Shown here: piece by piece, positions 2,906 through 9,749 of the stretch | Layout of the letters: every line of letters starts with the position of its first letter | Numbering within the stretch: the stretch's first letter is position 1 | NCBI GenBank assembly: GCA_025210555.1 | Contig: JAOARL010000038.1 | Location: 1 to 38,168, forward strand | Reading direction: 5' to 3' | DNA length: 38,168 nt | Origin: Clostridia bacterium | Lineage (GTDB): Bacteria > Bacillota > Clostridia > Lachnospirales > JAOARL01 | Notes under the pieces: model-generated | Seen by the model: only the letters and a program-made list of their open reading frames with translations | Database searches by the model: none | What the model was told of the DNA's origin: nothing | Position numbers and translations under genes: made by a program

Positions 2906-3952
2906 ATGTTTGATAAAATAGAATATATCGAAGAAATGGATAAAGATAAAGCACTAAGAGAAAAATATAATAGAATTTATAATATTGGATTATACAGACA
3001 TGATTTAGAAGAAGTAGACAAAAAAAAATCTCAGCTTCTTAAAGAAAAAGAAAAAATGGAAGAAGAAGCTAGAAATGAGTTTCAAGATGATAGAAAAAAT
3101 AAAGAAAAAAAATTTGAATTTAGAGCGAGTAAAAATGAAGTTAAAATGTATGAAGAGATAGTAAAAGCTTATTTATTAATAGATGAAGCTAAAAATCATG
3201 ATATAGATATTAGCGTTCCAATATCTATGATTATAGATAATTGTGAAAGATTTGATGGGTTTAGAGAGAATGAAAAAGAAATAGTTAAGAATTTTGTATT
3301 AGGATTTAACAAAGCTTACCCAAATAAACTTAGTATAGAAGAAGTATTAACTCGTGTAATGAATGCAAACGTAGAAATTTTTAGTGGTGAAGCAAGTTAT
3401 ATAGGAAGAGCAATTACAACTATTGAATCATTTGATTATTTGTCTAGAGAGATGTGGGAAGAAAAAAGAATACTAATAGATAAAAAAGAATATTATGGTG
3501 ATAGATTAGCAAGAATAATGTTTCATGAATTAACACATATAGTTATGGGTGATTATATACCAAAAGTAGATATGAATGTAACAGGGGCTATTAATTATAA
3601 TGATCCTAAGACTAAGATTATAAATGAAGGTATTACAGATAAAATGGCAGAAAATGCTTATATTCATTATTATGAAGAATTTGTATATGTAGAATTTTAT
3701 GACGTTGAAAGACACATAACAAGCTTATTAGGATTAGATAGAACTATTGATATTGAAGACTTAACAAACAATGATTATAAGTTATATGGAGATATTTCAC
3801 ATGAAATAAGGAAATATAAAAATAATGAAATATCAATAGCTGAGCTAGATACTGAATGTTTAGAAATAAAACAGGATAGAGATACATGTGTTTTAATAGA
3901 TGATTTAATAGATATGGATTATAATTATGAAGCACTACAATTAGTAAGTTAA
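2906..3952 (+). CDS. Zincin-like protein with HExxH motif, unrecognised family (copy 1)
   Basis: Unrecognised 348-residue protein. Residues 35-75 are highly charged and probably coiled coil. The C-terminal half carries FHELTHIVMG with HELTH at residues 207-211, the zinc-binding HExxH of zincin metallopeptidases. About 30 residues later comes NEGITDKMAE (Glu 241), which would supply the third zinc ligand as in gluzincins. No signal peptide or membrane segment is visible, so it is probably cytosolic or exported by an unknown route. AAGGGGGG lies six bases before the ATG. The next gene is a paralogue 26 bases downstream with the same motif order, and the two are probably co-transcribed. Peptidase activity is inference from motifs; the substrate is unknown. 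Confidence 0.7.
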   Translation: MFDKIEYIEEMDKDKALREKYNRIYNIGLYRHDLEEVDKKKSQLLKEKEKMEEEARNEFQDDRKNKEKKFEFRASKNEVKMYEEIVKAYLLIDEAKNHDIDISVPISMIIDNCERFDGFRENEKEIVKNFVLGFNKAYPNKLSIEEVLTRVMNANVEIFSGEASYIGRAITTIESFDYLSREMWEEKRILIDKKEYYGDRLARIMFHELTHIVMGDYIPKVDMNVTGAINYNDPKTKIINEGITDKMAENAYIHYYEEFVYVEFYDVERHITSLLGLDRTIDIEDLTNNDYKLYGDISHEIRKYKNNEISIAELDTECLEIKQDRDTCVLIDDLIDMDYNYEALQLVS

Positions 3953-3978
3953 TATAAATGACAATTAGGAGAAATGAC

Positions 3979-5010
3979 ATGATAAGTAATTTTAGTTATG
4001 AAGAAAATATAAAAATTGAAGATAGAGAAAGTAAACAGTATAAAGAATTAGAAGCTTTGGTAAAAGAGACACTTGGAAATAATGGAGAAGAATATGAAAT
4101 TTTAAATGCTATAAAAGAAAAGTATGGTGAAAATTTAAAAAGTAATGAGTTAAAAGCAATTACTTTAGAACATGAGAAGCTTTTAAAGAAAGATAAAAAG
4201 AGCCTTACTAGGCTTGAAAGAAAAAAAGAAATATTGGTAAGAGAACAATTTGCATATTCAATTAACGAATATTTGGTTGAAAATGCAATAAAAAAAGGTA
4301 ATGAATTGAGACTAGATAAGAAACTTATTATTGAAAATATTGTTTTAAATGCATATAGATATAATAAACTGGATGAAGACAGAAAAAATGATTTAATAGA
4401 ATATATAACAGAGTTTAATAATCAAAATCCTGACATGCTAGATTTGAGTACCGTTGTAACTAGGATAATGAATGTAGATTATAGAACAGGTCCGTGTAAA
4501 GATCTAGGAAATTTTCATGTAGTAACAATAACTGCTGGAATATTAGAAAAAATATCATGGGAAAAAGATAGGTATATAATAATAGATGAAGAGCAAGACT
4601 TAAAATATCATAGAAATATATTTAATCATGAAATGAATCATCAATTAATGAGTAATTATCAAACATTATATGAAAATGAAATTTGGATAGGGCTTGTTAA
4701 GTGTGATGAAAATCCAGAAAATGATAAATATACTTTAGTTAACGAAGGTGTGAATTCAGCACTTTCAAACAAAATAACTGATGCACAAGGATATACAGTT
4801 AAGGCTTGTTATGAAAAAGCTCAAAGAATAATTATAGATAGCAAATTTTTAGATAGAGTTAATATAAAAGATCTAGAAAAAAATGATGAAGAAGAAATTA
4901 AAGATTTAGACATGAGGATTAAAGTAAGTAGTCAAACAACAATTGATAATTCGCAAGATTTTTATAATAGTTTAGGGAATGTACTAAAATTTAATCAAGA
5001 ATTTGAATAA
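3979..5010 (+). CDS. Zincin-like protein with HExxH motif, unrecognised family (copy 2)
   Basis: Unrecognised 343-residue paralogue of the preceding protein. It shares a helical, charged N-terminal half, a TRIMN segment (TRVMN in copy 1), a WEKDRYIIID strand and the metal motif HEMNH at residues 217-221. NEGVNSALSN follows with Glu 256, about 35 residues after the last His. The region between the two motifs differs greatly from copy 1, suggesting diverged specificity. There is no signal peptide. I chose the ATG at 3979 because AGGAG lies seven bases upstream; the upstream in-frame ATG at 3958 lacks a site. A terminator follows immediately. A zinc-dependent peptidase is the simplest reading, but no target or partner is visible. 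Confidence 0.68.
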   Translation: MISNFSYEENIKIEDRESKQYKELEALVKETLGNNGEEYEILNAIKEKYGENLKSNELKAITLEHEKLLKKDKKSLTRLERKKEILVREQFAYSINEYLVENAIKKGNELRLDKKLIIENIVLNAYRYNKLDEDRKNDLIEYITEFNNQNPDMLDLSTVVTRIMNVDYRTGPCKDLGNFHVVTITAGILEKISWEKDRYIIIDEEQDLKYHRNIFNHEMNHQLMSNYQTLYENEIWIGLVKCDENPENDKYTLVNEGVNSALSNKITDAQGYTVKACYEKAQRIIIDSKFLDRVNIKDLEKNDEEEIKDLDMRIKVSSQTTIDNSQDFYNSLGNVLKFNQEFE

Positions 5011-5108: not shown

Positions 5109-6269
5109 ATGAGAAAAAAGTTAGTAATTACTTTAGTTATATTTATGGCGTTAGTAGGAATCTATAATGTTAACACTAAAGCATCTGAGAATAAAAAGAC
5201 AAATGAAACTAAAGAAATTGAAGAATACATAGTTGAAAGAAAAGATATACAAATATCAATAAGTGCAGATGGAAATTATAATATTCCAGTAAGAGAGTTT
5301 AAGTTTAAGTCAGGTGGAACAATTAGTAGTATAAATGTTTCAGAAGGAGAAATTGTTAAAGAAGGACAGATTCTTGCTAAGTTAGACAGCAGTGATTTAT
5401 ATACAGAACTTGAGAATGCAAAAATTTCACTTGAAGAAGTTAAGCTAAAAACAGAAAATATTGAAATAACAAAAATGAATAATGACTTTGAAATTAAAAA
5501 TTTAGAAAAGGATTATGCTGAAAAGTTAAGCGATTATGAAGATGCCTTAGAACTTGGAAAACTATATTCTGAAAAAGAAGTTTCAGATATGAAAATAGAA
5601 TTAGATAAATTAAAAGAAGAAATTAGTAATAAAAAAATAGAAAAAGAAAAGAATTTAGCATATGACATCAAATCAAATGAAGTAAGCATAAGAAAAGCAG
5701 AAAATGATATAAAAAATATTTATTCAGATATAGCAGATATGAATCTTAAAACAATGTTTTCAGGTGAAATATATGATGTTAATTATAAAAAAGGTGAGGA
5801 TATAAGCACTAGTGATGTAGTTATTACACTAGCTGAAGTTAATGAATCAAAAATACAATCAAAAGTTCCAGAGATTGATATTGAGAATATAGAAGTTGGT
5901 CAAAAGGTAGAATTAGAATTTGAGGCCTTCTTAGGTAAAACATACATAGGTTCAGTTAGTAATGTAAAGAAAAATCCAGAAGTAGATAATAATGGAATAG
6001 TAAATTATTATGTTGAAATAGAACTAGATAAAAAACATGATGAGATAAAAAATAATATGACAGCTAGCATAGAGTTTATTATAGCTGAAAAAGAAAAAGT
6101 AATTACTGTTCCAAATAAATCAGTTAGTATAGCTAACAAAAAACAATATGTATCAGTTATAACTGATACAGGAATAGAAGAAAGACAAATTGTTACAGGA
6201 TTAACAGATGGTAAATATGCAGAAGTAATAAAAGGGTTAGATATAAATGAGAAAGTAATCGTAAAGTAG
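5109..6269 (+). CDS. Efflux transporter periplasmic-adaptor-like subunit (MacA/HlyD family)
   Basis: Membrane-fusion/adaptor component of a MacAB-type ABC exporter, 386 residues. An N-terminal hydrophobic stretch (residues 4-20) serves as signal anchor. A split biotinyl-lipoyl domain (SINVSEGEIVKEGQILAKLD near 73-92) flanks a long alpha-helical coiled hairpin (about 100-205). Beta-barrel and membrane-proximal domains follow (VGQKVELEFEAFLGKTYIGS, then VPNKSVSIANKKQYV). AAAAGGAGG gives a strong site before the ATG. It is first in a five-gene operon with permease, lipoprotein, ATPase and TolC-like protein. A palindrome AGTAT-TAAT-ATACT at 5073-5086 lies in its promoter region and may bind a regulator. 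In Firmicutes the equivalent role is played by YknX-like proteins; the cargo is unknown. Confidence 0.85.
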   Translation: MRKKLVITLVIFMALVGIYNVNTKASENKKTNETKEIEEYIVERKDIQISISADGNYNIPVREFKFKSGGTISSINVSEGEIVKEGQILAKLDSSDLYTELENAKISLEEVKLKTENIEITKMNNDFEIKNLEKDYAEKLSDYEDALELGKLYSEKEVSDMKIELDKLKEEISNKKIEKEKNLAYDIKSNEVSIRKAENDIKNIYSDIADMNLKTMFSGEIYDVNYKKGEDISTSDVVITLAEVNESKIQSKVPEIDIENIEVGQKVELEFEAFLGKTYIGSVSNVKKNPEVDNNGIVNYYVEIELDKKHDEIKNNMTASIEFIIAEKEKVITVPNKSVSIANKKQYVSVITDTGIEERQIVTGLTDGKYAEVIKGLDINEKVIVK

Positions 6270-6279
6270 GTGGTAACTT

Positions 6280-7452
6280 GTGAAAATAGAAGAGTTAATT
6301 AAGGTTGTTTTTACAAATGTGCTTTCAAATAAATTCAGGGTCTTTTTAACTATGCTTGGAATAATAGTGGGATCTGCAACGCTTGTTGTAGTTCTTGGGA
6401 TAGGTAATGGATCTACTAAATCAGTTGAGGAGCAATTTTCAAATTTAAATGTAAATATGATAACTATTATGCAAGGAAGAGGAAGAGGATCAGCGAAGAT
6501 TGATGAAGAAGATATAGAATATATAAAAGATAAGACAGAGTACCTAAATGCAATTACAAGTTTAACAATGACAAATGTGACATCTGTATACAATGATTTA
6601 GAATTTTCAGGTTCAGCCTTTGGTATTAAAGAAGATTTCTTTGGAATAAACAATCTAGAGATAAAATACGGTAAAGAATTTGAAGAAGATGATAATGATA
6701 AAAGAAGAAAAAAGGTTATTATTGGATCTGAGGTTGCAAAAGAATTATTTGAAGATGAATATGCGATTGGGGAATATATAAAGATAAATAGCAAAAGGTA
6801 TGAAGTGATAGGCGTTCTTGAAGAATCAGGAATGATGCTTGTAAAAGGAAGTGCTGATGAATCAATATTTGTGCCTGAGCAAACATTAAAGTCATATGTA
6901 GGTGGTAAATTTAATTCTTCAAGTATAATGGCTTTTGCAAATAATCTTGATGAAGTAGAAGACTTAAAATTAGAACTAACAGATATATTAGATGTTAGGC
7001 TAGGAGAAGGAAAATATATGATGTTTGATGTAGGGAGTTCTCTAACTACCGCTAAAGAATCTGTTACGATGGTTTCAATGATGCTTGCATCAGTAGCTGT
7101 AATAGTCCTCATGGTAGGTGGAATTGGGATTATGAATGTATTATTTGTTTCAGTTAAGGAAAGAACAAAAGAAATAGGTATATTTAAAGCACTAGGAACT
7201 AAGAAGAAAGAAATACTATTAATATTTTTAATAGAATCGTTAATAATATCAGTTTTAGGAGCATTTGTAGGGATATTAATAACAATATTACTACTACCAA
7301 TAATAACCTCATTTGGGGTACTCGTTATACCTACAAGTAGTACGTATATATTGGCTATAATGTTTTCATTAGTAACAGGAGCAGTATTTGGTTTGTATCC
7401 AGCATATCAAGCTTCAAATTTAAAACCAATAGATGCATTAAGATATGAATAG
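6280..7452 (+). CDS. ABC transporter permease, MacB/FtsX type
   Basis: Membrane subunit of the exporter, 390 residues. TM1 (about 18-40, FLTMLGIIVGSATLVVVLGI) is followed by a large extracytoplasmic MacB-type domain (about 45-250). Three C-terminal helices then carry the FtsX signature (VSVKERTKEIGIFKALGTKK at about 290-310) and the ending ASNLKPIDALRYE, both hallmarks of this family. The nucleotide-binding domain is not fused, unlike E. coli MacB; it is a separate gene two positions downstream. Start is GTG at 6280, with AGGTGG overlapping the stop codon of the adaptor gene ten bases upstream. Confidence 0.88.
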   Translation: MKIEELIKVVFTNVLSNKFRVFLTMLGIIVGSATLVVVLGIGNGSTKSVEEQFSNLNVNMITIMQGRGRGSAKIDEEDIEYIKDKTEYLNAITSLTMTNVTSVYNDLEFSGSAFGIKEDFFGINNLEIKYGKEFEEDDNDKRRKKVIIGSEVAKELFEDEYAIGEYIKINSKRYEVIGVLEESGMMLVKGSADESIFVPEQTLKSYVGGKFNSSSIMAFANNLDEVEDLKLELTDILDVRLGEGKYMMFDVGSSLTTAKESVTMVSMMLASVAVIVLMVGGIGIMNVLFVSVKERTKEIGIFKALGTKKKEILLIFLIESLIISVLGAFVGILITILLLPIITSFGVLVIPTSSTYILAIMFSLVTGAVFGLYPAYQASNLKPIDALRYE

Positions 7453-7467
7453 AAAGAGGGGAACGTT

Positions 7468-8010
7468 TTGAAAAAAATAATATTATTACTAATGTTTTCT
7501 ATGGCATTAGTTGGCTGTGGAAGCGTAAGCAAGGAAGATATTGAAATTGAGAAAGTAGAAATAGAAAATAAAACTGAAAATGAAGTAAGAGAAAGACCAC
7601 TGCAGAAAGAGTTTTATAATGGACAAGTTGCTAAAGTTATTGGAAATATAGTAACTATTGATGTGTATGAAGCTCCAGAAAAAAAAGAATTAACTGAAGA
7701 GCAAAAAGAAAAAATGAAAACTCTTGTATCAAGAAATACAAACATGGGTAATAGCAAAGGTATGTTTAAAATGGGAGCTGGGATGAAAAGAGGAAATGAA
7801 TCGGAAGTTAAGTTAACAGGAGAGCAGCTAGATATAATAATACCAGTAGGACTTGAGATAAACAAAAGAGGTAGAGAAGGTAATACTTCAGTTGAATTAG
7901 ATGAAATAGCGAAAGGCATTAAATTAAGAATTGTTATAGACGAAGAACTTAGTGATGAAGAAAATAAATTTGCTGAGTCAGTTTACGTGATGGGAGCAGG
8001 AGGTGCTTAA
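7468..8010 (+). CDS. Small lipoprotein in the MacAB-type operon
   Basis: A 180-residue predicted lipoprotein: basic start, hydrophobic stretch and lipobox LVGC with Cys at residue 17. The mature part has a short beta-like segment (GQVAKVIGNIVTIDVYEAP), a basic Gly/Met-rich stretch (about 92-110) and a second beta-like part. No known domain is recognised. Similar small lipoproteins often accompany MacAB-like exporters in Clostridia, so an accessory or substrate-handling role at the outer face of the membrane is likely but unproven. Start is TTG at 7468 with AGAGGGG upstream. The stop lies one base before the ATPase start. Confidence 0.65.
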   Translation: MKKIILLLMFSMALVGCGSVSKEDIEIEKVEIENKTENEVRERPLQKEFYNGQVAKVIGNIVTIDVYEAPEKKELTEEQKEKMKTLVSRNTNMGNSKGMFKMGAGMKRGNESEVKLTGEQLDIIIPVGLEINKRGREGNTSVELDEIAKGIKLRIVIDEELSDEENKFAESVYVMGAGGA

Positions 8011-8011
8011 A

Positions 8012-8713
8012 ATGGAAACTGTTATAAGCCTAGAGAATATAAGAAAAGTATATAAGCTTGGCAGAAATAGTTTAGAAGTATTAAAAGGTATAGATATGAA
8101 GATAACAAAAGGTGAATTTGTTGCAATATTAGGACCATCAGGATCAGGAAAATCTACCGTAATGAATATATTAGGGTGCATAGATGAAAAAACAGAAGGA
8201 AGTTATAATCTAGCAGGGCAGGACATAGAAACTTTAAGTGATGATCAGTTAGCGAATATAAGAAATAATAAAATTGGATTTATATTCCAAAAGTTTAACC
8301 TAATATCTAAATACAATATGTTATATAACGTTCAGATGCCGCTTATAATAAGAGGAGAAACGAGTAAAGGAACTGAGGAAGTAGCTAAAGAGATGCTCGA
8401 TAAAGTAGGTTTACTAGATCGAATAGATCATAGACCAAATGAACTTTCAGGTGGTCAGCAGCAGAGGGTAGCTATAGCTAGAGCACTTATTACTAATCCA
8501 GAAATAATTTTAGCAGATGAACCTACAGGTAATCTGGATAGTAAATCAGGAGAAGAAGTAATGAAAATTTTGAATAGACTAAATAGTGAAGGTAAAACGA
8601 TAATTCTTATAACTCATGATGAAGAAACGGCTAAACATGCAAATAGAATAATATATATTAAAGATGGTCTAATAGAAAAGGAGGTAGTTAACAATGAAAT
8701 ATATTCTTACTAG
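8012..8713 (+). CDS. ABC transporter ATP-binding protein, MacB/LolD type
   Basis: ATPase subunit of the exporter, 233 residues. Walker A GPSGSGKST lies near residues 40-48, with a Q-loop in FIFQKFNL, signature LSGGQQQR, Walker B ILADEPTGNLD and H-loop ITHD. The LDSKSGEEVMKIL segment after Walker B is typical of the o228/MacB-LolD-FtsE group. I start it at the ATG at 8012 because AGGAGG (7998-8003) sits eight bases upstream; the in-frame GTG at 8003 lies inside that site. Its last 20 bases overlap the TolC-like gene, whose ribosome site is inside this gene, pointing to coupled translation. Confidence 0.92.
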   Translation: METVISLENIRKVYKLGRNSLEVLKGIDMKITKGEFVAILGPSGSGKSTVMNILGCIDEKTEGSYNLAGQDIETLSDDQLANIRNNKIGFIFQKFNLISKYNMLYNVQMPLIIRGETSKGTEEVAKEMLDKVGLLDRIDHRPNELSGGQQQRVAIARALITNPEIILADEPTGNLDSKSGEEVMKILNRLNSEGKTIILITHDEETAKHANRIIYIKDGLIEKEVVNNEIYSY

Positions 8714-9749
8714 TTTATCTATGTTTACACTTATGGGTTTAAGTATAAGTGCGGATAATACTATTTTGGAGAAGCTTTATGAAGATAGTGTAAACATAAA
8801 AATTTTAGAAAGTGAGTTGGATACACTTGAAGAAGATTTAGATGACTTAAGTTCTCAAAGAAGTCGTATAAAGAATAATAATGAAAGAGGAGCAGCTAAA
8901 AGTTATAGTGAATATTTAGTGAAAGCAAGATTTGAAGATAAAAAAGTAGAAAGAAAAATTGATGATAAGAAAGAAGACATTGCTACCACAAAAAAGAATA
9001 TTGAACATAATCTTTTTGAATACACAATTGCTGTAAAAGAAGAAGAAAAGGCATATTCAATTAAATTAGGTGAATATGAAAACTTATATTCTTTATTTAA
9101 GATAACTGAAAAAAAGTTTAAACAAGGAAGTATTTCAGAAATGGAATATAATGATGAGTATATAAAAATTAAAGAATTTGAAAACGAAGTTAAAAAGGCA
9201 GAAAGAACTTTGGAATATGAAGCATTAAACTATAAATTTTTTATGGGACTTGATTATGATAGTGAGGTAGAGTTAATAGATATAAATATAGAAATATTAG
9301 AGCCTAAAGAGCTAAATGAAATTTATGAGATGAAGATTTTAAAAGATGAAAATTTAAATAACCTCCAAAATGATTTAAATATAAATGTAGATGAAGAAAA
9401 GTATGTGAAAGCTTATTATGGAAAAAATGAAGCTAAACATATATCAATAATAAATACTATTGAAAAGCTAAAACTTCAAATTGATGAAAGAAAAAGAAGT
9501 TTGTATATAGAAAGTTATAATGACTTTATGGAATATAAAAATATGTATGAAGAATATTTATTGTTAAAGGAAAAATCAAATATTTTAGAAGAAAAGTATA
9601 GACTTAAAAAACTTCAATATGAAAAAGGTTTAGTCTCAGTATTTGAATTGATTGAGGAAGCTGAAAATTATATTAACGAACAAATAAGCTTTGAGTCTAA
9701 GAAAAACAACTTGTATCTTAAGATGAATAAGATTGAGAATAATATCTAA
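8694..9749 (+). CDS. TolC-family-like secreted coiled-coil protein
   Basis: A 351-residue protein with a signal peptide (residues 1-20, ending LSISA) and otherwise almost entirely charged helix. Two copies of the TolC/OEP repeat pattern are visible. The first is KKFKQGSISEMEYNDEYIKI leading to a LxYxFFMGLDYD-type turn (about 138-185). The second is KKLQYEKGLVSVFELIEEAE (about 303-322). TolC proteins form the outer-membrane duct of MacAB pumps. Here the points where barrel strands should interrupt each helical repeat are short and hydrophilic, so no barrel is apparent. AAAAGGAGG lies ten bases upstream of the ATG. A role extending the adaptor outside the membrane is inference. Confidence 0.7.
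   Translation: MKYILTSLSMFTLMGLSISADNTILEKLYEDSVNIKILESELDTLEEDLDDLSSQRSRIKNNNERGAAKSYSEYLVKARFEDKKVERKIDDKKEDIATTKKNIEHNLFEYTIAVKEEEKAYSIKLGEYENLYSLFKITEKKFKQGSISEMEYNDEYIKIKEFENEVKKAERTLEYEALNYKFFMGLDYDSEVELIDINIEILEPKELNEIYEMKILKDENLNNLQNDLNINVDEEKYVKAYYGKNEAKHISIINTIEKLKLQIDERKRSLYIESYNDFMEYKNMYEEYLLLKEKSNILEEKYRLKKLQYEKGLVSVFELIEEAENYINEQISFESKKNNLYLKMNKIENNI

Follow-up and report, generated by a model that had tools for sequence, protein, structure and literature searches.

A MacAB-type operon of a Clostridia bacterium encodes a TolC-like protein predicted to be all-helical and to lack the outer-membrane barrel

The window analysed is the whole 38,168-nucleotide stretch of contig JAOARL010000038.1 from a Clostridia bacterium of the Lachnospirales (assembly GCA_025210555.1, here genome G000). 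Five plus-strand genes at positions 5109–9749 form a tight MacAB-type operon in which neighbouring genes overlap or lie at most 15 bases apart. The first gene (5109–6269) encodes a MacA-like adaptor, or membrane fusion protein, of 386 residues that was matched by HlyD_D23 (50.6 bits) and HlyD_3 (51.3 bits) and was aligned with E. coli MacA at 21% identity by BLASTP (E 2e-19). The second (6280–7452) encodes a 390-residue MacB-type permease with MacB_PCD and FtsX matches and no ATPase domain, and the fourth (8003–8713) a 236-residue ABC ATPase of the MacB/LolD type (ABC_tran, 112.7 bits). Residues 255–646 of NCBIfam MacB matched the permease and residues 1–224 matched the ATPase (275.8 bits), so MacB is split in two here, whereas E. 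coli MacB is a single chain. Between these two genes lies a gene for a small lipoprotein-like protein of 180 residues with an N-terminal ALVGC (7468–8010). The last gene (8694–9749) encodes a barrel-less TolC-like protein of 351 residues, recognised by Pfam OEP, a family profile, an AlphaFold2 model, Foldseek and VIA-align comparisons and its glycine spacing. The operon contains the adaptor, MacB-type permease and ATPase of a MacAB-type pump, as do E. coli MacAB and Spr0693-0694-0695 of S. pneumoniae. A sequence-only reading of the window had recognised this operon with the correct coordinates, and the 180-residue gene is to be added to its gene list.

The 180-residue protein had no Pfam match, as was also the case for its relative at locus L042. 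Its predicted fold was a small β domain of low confidence (pLDDT 63), for which no PDB match was obtained at E ≤ 0.001 and only weak OB-fold-like matches were seen. The family occurs in MacAB-type operons of Clostridia, and was also observed in Oscillospiraceae (L087/L088) and in Clostridium ganghwense (L078). Downstream of the TolC-like gene are a 206-residue protein with no Pfam match over cut-off and then a TetR-type regulator, the latter weakly suggesting a drug or toxic peptide as the substrate. On the other side of the operon, the frames at 2906–3952 and 3958–5010 encode adjoining proteins in which HELTH and HEMNH motifs occur; neither has a Pfam match, and both may be zinc metalloproteases. 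A T-box leader lies on the minus strand at 1838–2091, and the frame downstream of it is one that we take to resemble methionyl-tRNA synthetase.

Relatives of the permease were found at 19 loci, from the Clostridiales MAGs GWE2_32_10, GWD2_32_19 and UBA12072, Clostridium ganghwense, Epulopiscium and Lachnospiraceae, with Patescibacteria and Bacteroidota also represented, and a Clostridia-type Firmicute is the likely host. The closest orthologous operons with the same five genes, the lipoprotein-like gene included, were found in other Clostridia, at L042/L079, L044/L080 and L077. Their order is adaptor, permease, OEP protein, lipoprotein-like protein and ATPase, whereas the window operon ends with the OEP gene. 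The identities of the window proteins to those of L042 and L044 were 45 and 45% for the permease, 30 and 32% for the adaptor, 31 and 33% for the lipoprotein-like protein and 23 and 21% for the OEP protein. At the C. ganghwense locus the other four genes are followed by two opposite-strand frames and then by two barrel-less OEP genes, and elsewhere in the order barrel-less OEP genes adjoin MacB-type or RND-type pumps. The divergence of the OEP protein, at 21–23% identity when the permease is conserved at 45%, would fit a TolC remnant that is decaying after its lineage lost the outer membrane. Such decay is very improbable, as the open frame overlaps the ATPase gene and has no internal stop, the gene is kept in the orthologous operon, and the spacing between the hairpin glycines described below is kept at 167 residues.

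The hairpin motifs of the TolC-like protein are KFKQGSISEMEY (residues 141–152) and YEKGLVSVFELI (residues 309–320), with the hairpin tips at G145 and G312. Pfam OEP matched the protein in two stretches at 28.8 bits (cut-off 22), and this match was rejected as sole evidence, since the OEP cut-off is likewise exceeded by two adaptors encoded in G000. A profile, A2, was built from 27 other OEP proteins of the order with the window protein left out; it matched the TolC-like protein with 57 bits over positions 49–360, whereas the best score among 6000 shuffled copies (plain, heptad-preserving and local) was -2.6 bits. The same profile gave 67 bits for E. coli TolC and 51 bits for the OEP protein of Crocinitomix. 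The best of the 29 adaptors in the fetched loci scored 45 bits, which indicates that adaptors are real relatives of the hairpins. The TolC-like protein contains no lipoyl or barrel-sandwich domain, OEP is its sole Pfam match and its model has no strand, which separates it from the adaptors, and the two OEP helical repeats in one chain place it in the OEP/TolC superfamily. The protein is thus a real TolC relative and no chance coiled coil, and the two TolC helical repeats that had been noticed from the sequence were both recovered, as motifs, as two OEP stretches and in the full-length A2 match. The N-terminus is hydrophobic and the rest hydrophilic, and the putative signal peptide was judged from this hydrophobicity alone.

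When the TolC-like sequence was used directly as the query, no relatives were found in the genome_contigs collection or in the 55 others of the 56 genomes searched, so a profile was needed. Pfam OEP matched 123 of the 196 genomes of the order, a count that includes adaptors. Within its own genome the A2 profile gave three matches, of which the window protein alone was full-length; the two partial matches are the adaptors of L001 and L002 and were rejected as further TolC-like proteins. The genome carries at least four adaptors (L001, L002 and L003 among the loci) but a single OEP protein of full length. Several pumps of this organism may therefore share one tube, by analogy with E. coli TolC, which serves several pumps.

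The structure of the TolC-like protein was modelled with AlphaFold2 from six aligned sequences, giving a mean pLDDT of 79.7 and a pTM of 0.68. The model is composed of seven helices (residues 23–65, 68–143, 149–184, 207–217, 219–242, 247–310 and 316–349) and contains no strand. The sites occupied by the strand pairs of TolC correspond to turns at residues 66–67 and 243–246, where the charged fraction is 0.35 and 0.29, compared with 0.14 and 0.13 in TolC. When the model was searched with Foldseek, the first 44 PDB matches were all outer-membrane efflux channels (best E 8e-5). Superposition on TolC (PDB id. 1ek9) with VIA-align covered 318 residues with a Z score of 19.5 and an rmsd of 7.0 Å, the first unrelated entry having a Z score of 9.7. 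The sequence-only reading had described short hydrophilic sequence in place of the barrel strands and had called for a structure prediction of the protein alone; the turns, their charge and the absence of a four-stranded barrel from the model bear that description out.

The size of the missing region was estimated from the distance between the two hairpin glycines, which is 167 residues in the window protein and 164–177 in 27 of 27 A2 members; the Crocinitomix protein has 210 and E. coli TolC 218. Alignment of A2 with the sequence of the TolC crystal structure spans both hairpins and leaves one unmatched block of about 51 TolC residues, approximately mature residues 247 to 297, which we take to be strands S4 and S5 of the second barrel hairpin. 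The window protein shares with E. coli TolC the two helical hairpin repeats, the tip glycines and the equatorial region, whereas in TolC the tip glycines lie 51 residues further apart and there is a barrel in the outer membrane. An outer-membrane factor contributes four β strands per subunit to such a barrel; here the model has no strand, and about 51 residues are missing relative to TolC.

Genome G000 (1.56 Mb, 99.57% complete) was searched for genes of outer-membrane assembly. The searches gave no match to Omp85/BamA (control: 7 of 14 known genomes matched) or to LptD (control: 2 of 14), so that neither marker of the BAM-assembled outer membrane expected of an outer-membrane factor was detected. 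Together with the strandless model, these results support the all-helical reading and also the single-membrane reading that had been proposed from the T-box and other traits. Neither outcome that had been named as refuting the sequence-only reading, a normal barrel in the prediction or a set of outer-membrane genes in the genome, was observed. The OEP family is classically an outer-membrane one and carries that location in its name, which would be in keeping with an ordinary outer-membrane channel in a cryptic diderm; with no strands in the AlphaFold2 model and no BamA or LptD match in a genome of this completeness, that explanation is close to refuted.

Across the order, Omp85 was over cut-off in 0 of 196 genomes, with one weak match below cut-off. 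A sample of 299 genomes of the phylum gave Omp85 over cut-off in 75 and an A2 match in 216. Near-full-length A2 matches were examined in 145 cases, of which 32 came from 27 BamA-bearing genomes, and 30 of these 32 had no extra residues at the barrel site. The glycine spacing was 161–169 in all 30 of the best phylum loci, two of which are from BamA-bearing genomes (L134 in G469 and L136 in G196). These phylum sequences were picked for their high scores against a profile without a barrel, and canonical TolC proteins are accordingly under-represented among them. The 30 matches without barrel residues indicate that barrel-less tubes are not confined to cells lacking BamA, and on these alignments loss of the barrel appears not to be tied only to the absence of an outer membrane.

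Barrel-less TolC-like proteins of monoderms are not a new idea. In the portions of Stubenrauch et al. (2022, PLoS Biol, PMC8809574) that are available, TolC-like proteins are reported from monoderm Firmicutes in operons with pump parts, with 12 proteins from 5 families shown; in the Phyre2 model given there, the C. difficile protein shows an omission within its barrel domain, where the surface is hydrophilic, and the S-layer is proposed to house the protein. As far as those portions go, the window protein resembles these proteins in its duplicated OEP repeat, its pump operon, its hydrophilic omission at the barrel and the lack of BAM in its lineage, and it is a well-supported further example of a kind reported in 2022. 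One difference is that the C. difficile model is described as keeping a hydrophilic barrel region, while the AlphaFold2 model of the window protein is without any strand. The window operon also differs from the systems described there in being of MacAB type with an extra lipoprotein-like gene. Another reported protein of the family is Dred_3141 (PF02321) of Desulfotomaculum reducens, which according to the available text of PMC4137172 was detected in a Gram-positive surface proteome; it is likened to the window protein by family and not by sequence comparison. What is new here is the size and constancy of the deletion, the fusions to SLH and Cu_amine_oxidN1 domains, the near-universal co-occurrence with SLH in the order and the barrel-less forms in some BamA-bearing Firmicutes. 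In the open-licence PMC literature no paper was found on SLH-OEP fusions, nor on barrel-less OEP proteins in BamA-bearing Firmicutes.

The preferred interpretation, to which we assign a probability of about 0.6, is that the TolC-like protein acts as an exit duct, extending the tunnel of the adaptor across the cell wall. The five genes would then provide a single-membrane Firmicute with an ABC system of MacAB type for efflux or export. The TolC-like protein would be exported by its putative signal peptide and would trimerise like TolC into a helical tube in which the long helical hairpins are kept and both β hairpins of each subunit are replaced by short hydrophilic turns. This tube would join an adaptor hexamer end to end, resting on the hairpin tips of the adaptors, and the ATPase-permease pair would use ATP hydrolysis to move the substrate into the adaptor tunnel. 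From the membrane face the substrate would pass through the inner wall space and the peptidoglycan to the SLH/S-layer zone. The tube, its docking on the adaptor and the crossing of the wall are proposed because of homology and operon structure, and closure of the tube is left as a proposal because the model fits TolC loosely (rmsd about 7 Å).

The adaptor tip motif was considered as evidence for docking and was dropped. In the BLASTP alignment KL-YSEKEVS (window adaptor) stands opposite RL-AQTKAVS (MacA), the exact letters of the RLS motif in MacA being assumed here; the adaptors of the orthologues lack the plain MacA tip pattern and have an insertion at this site, and the multiple alignment is ambiguous. 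The modelled dimensions of S. pneumoniae MacAB are consistent with a duct. In the accessible part of the 2018 study of S. pneumoniae MacAB (PMC5768738), the apex of the modelled assembly lies 154 Å from the membrane, towards the peptidoglycan, a distance comparable with the inner wall space, so that adding another helical tube would bring the assembly into the wall. The S. pneumoniae pump is modelled there without a TolC-like part, unlike the window operon.

The window protein itself lacks a wall-binding domain, a lipobox and any anchor. With no anchor and no barrel, it might instead be a scaffold that spans the wall, or a regulator of the pump, binding the adaptor without forming a conduit, and helical hairpins could merely stabilise the adaptor ring. 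We consider this improbable, since the spacing typical of the tube family and the hairpin tips are kept in 27 of 27 aligned relatives and in 30 of 30 top phylum loci, the latter having been chosen by the same profile.

Anchoring domains were found on other members of the family. Among 13 long OEP proteins, picked by hand and scanned with Pfam, OEP was matched in 13, Cu_amine_oxidN1 in 6 and SLH in 1. The SLH domain is N-terminal in this natural SLH-OEP fusion (L052:4036–5730), which by its domain content is apparently a wall-anchored tube. An N-terminal Cu_amine_oxidN1, which we take to be a wall-associated domain, is carried by the OEP protein of L073 according to a domain match, and by those of L015, L017, L035 and others according to a reading of their sequences. 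The open-licence PMC literature offered nothing usable on Cu_amine_oxidN1 as a wall binder. In two further OEP proteins of about 700 residues (L053:3432–5510 and L054:4409–6571), the second repeat is interrupted by a long insert and the C-terminal tail is of unassigned fold. In what is available of PMC8809574 there is no mention of an SLH fusion such as that of L052.

The proposal of Stubenrauch et al. (2022), as given in the available portions of PMC8809574, is that the truncated outer end is housed in a proteinaceous S-layer that replaces the outer membrane. The proposal shares much with the preferred wall duct, the point of difference being what retains the outer end; for the window protein we think it unlikely, with the SLH data in its favour. 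There are 23 SLH matches in 11 open frames of G000, and the natural SLH-OEP fusion points in the same direction. At E ≤ 0.001 an A2 match was obtained in 125 of the 196 genomes of the order, with SLH present in 120 and absent in 5. At E ≤ 1e-10, a cut-off set after the fact, 112 of 113 genomes with the strong barrel-less match also carry SLH, a co-occurrence not corrected for phylogeny, and the remainder comprised 54 genomes with SLH only and 29 with neither. The co-occurrence is clade-driven, most SLH-negative genomes belonging to two families, so that the Fisher value for A2 and SLH does not describe independent events. Genome G027 has a strong A2 match but lacks any SLH match; its OEP protein (P0001) contains a long insert in the middle. 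SLH domains are moreover no proof of an S-layer: the genomes described in the available text of PMC8809574 carry S-layer genes, whereas G000 carries SLH matches.

If the window protein is an exit duct through the wall, the role of the adaptor in a cell with one membrane would be to hand the substrate to a further helical tube. A broader proposal, which we hold tentatively and consider somewhat more likely to be wrong than right, is that OEP proteins without a barrel form a class of their own, widespread and serving as exit ducts across the wall, in which the barrel was in some lineages traded for SLH or Cu_amine_oxidN1 domains, giving complete three-part pumps to single-membrane bacteria. The small tube proteins are expected to be soluble and should crystallise without detergent, and from the natural SLH fusions the position of the tube's outer end can be predicted. 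That Firmicutes with BamA and Firmicutes without it both have barrel-less forms is relevant to how the outer membrane came to be lost. If the forms in BamA-bearing Firmicutes are truly barrel-less, the barrel would be an optional module, and TolC may descend from a barrel-less tube, or the barrel may have been lost before, or apart from, the outer membrane.
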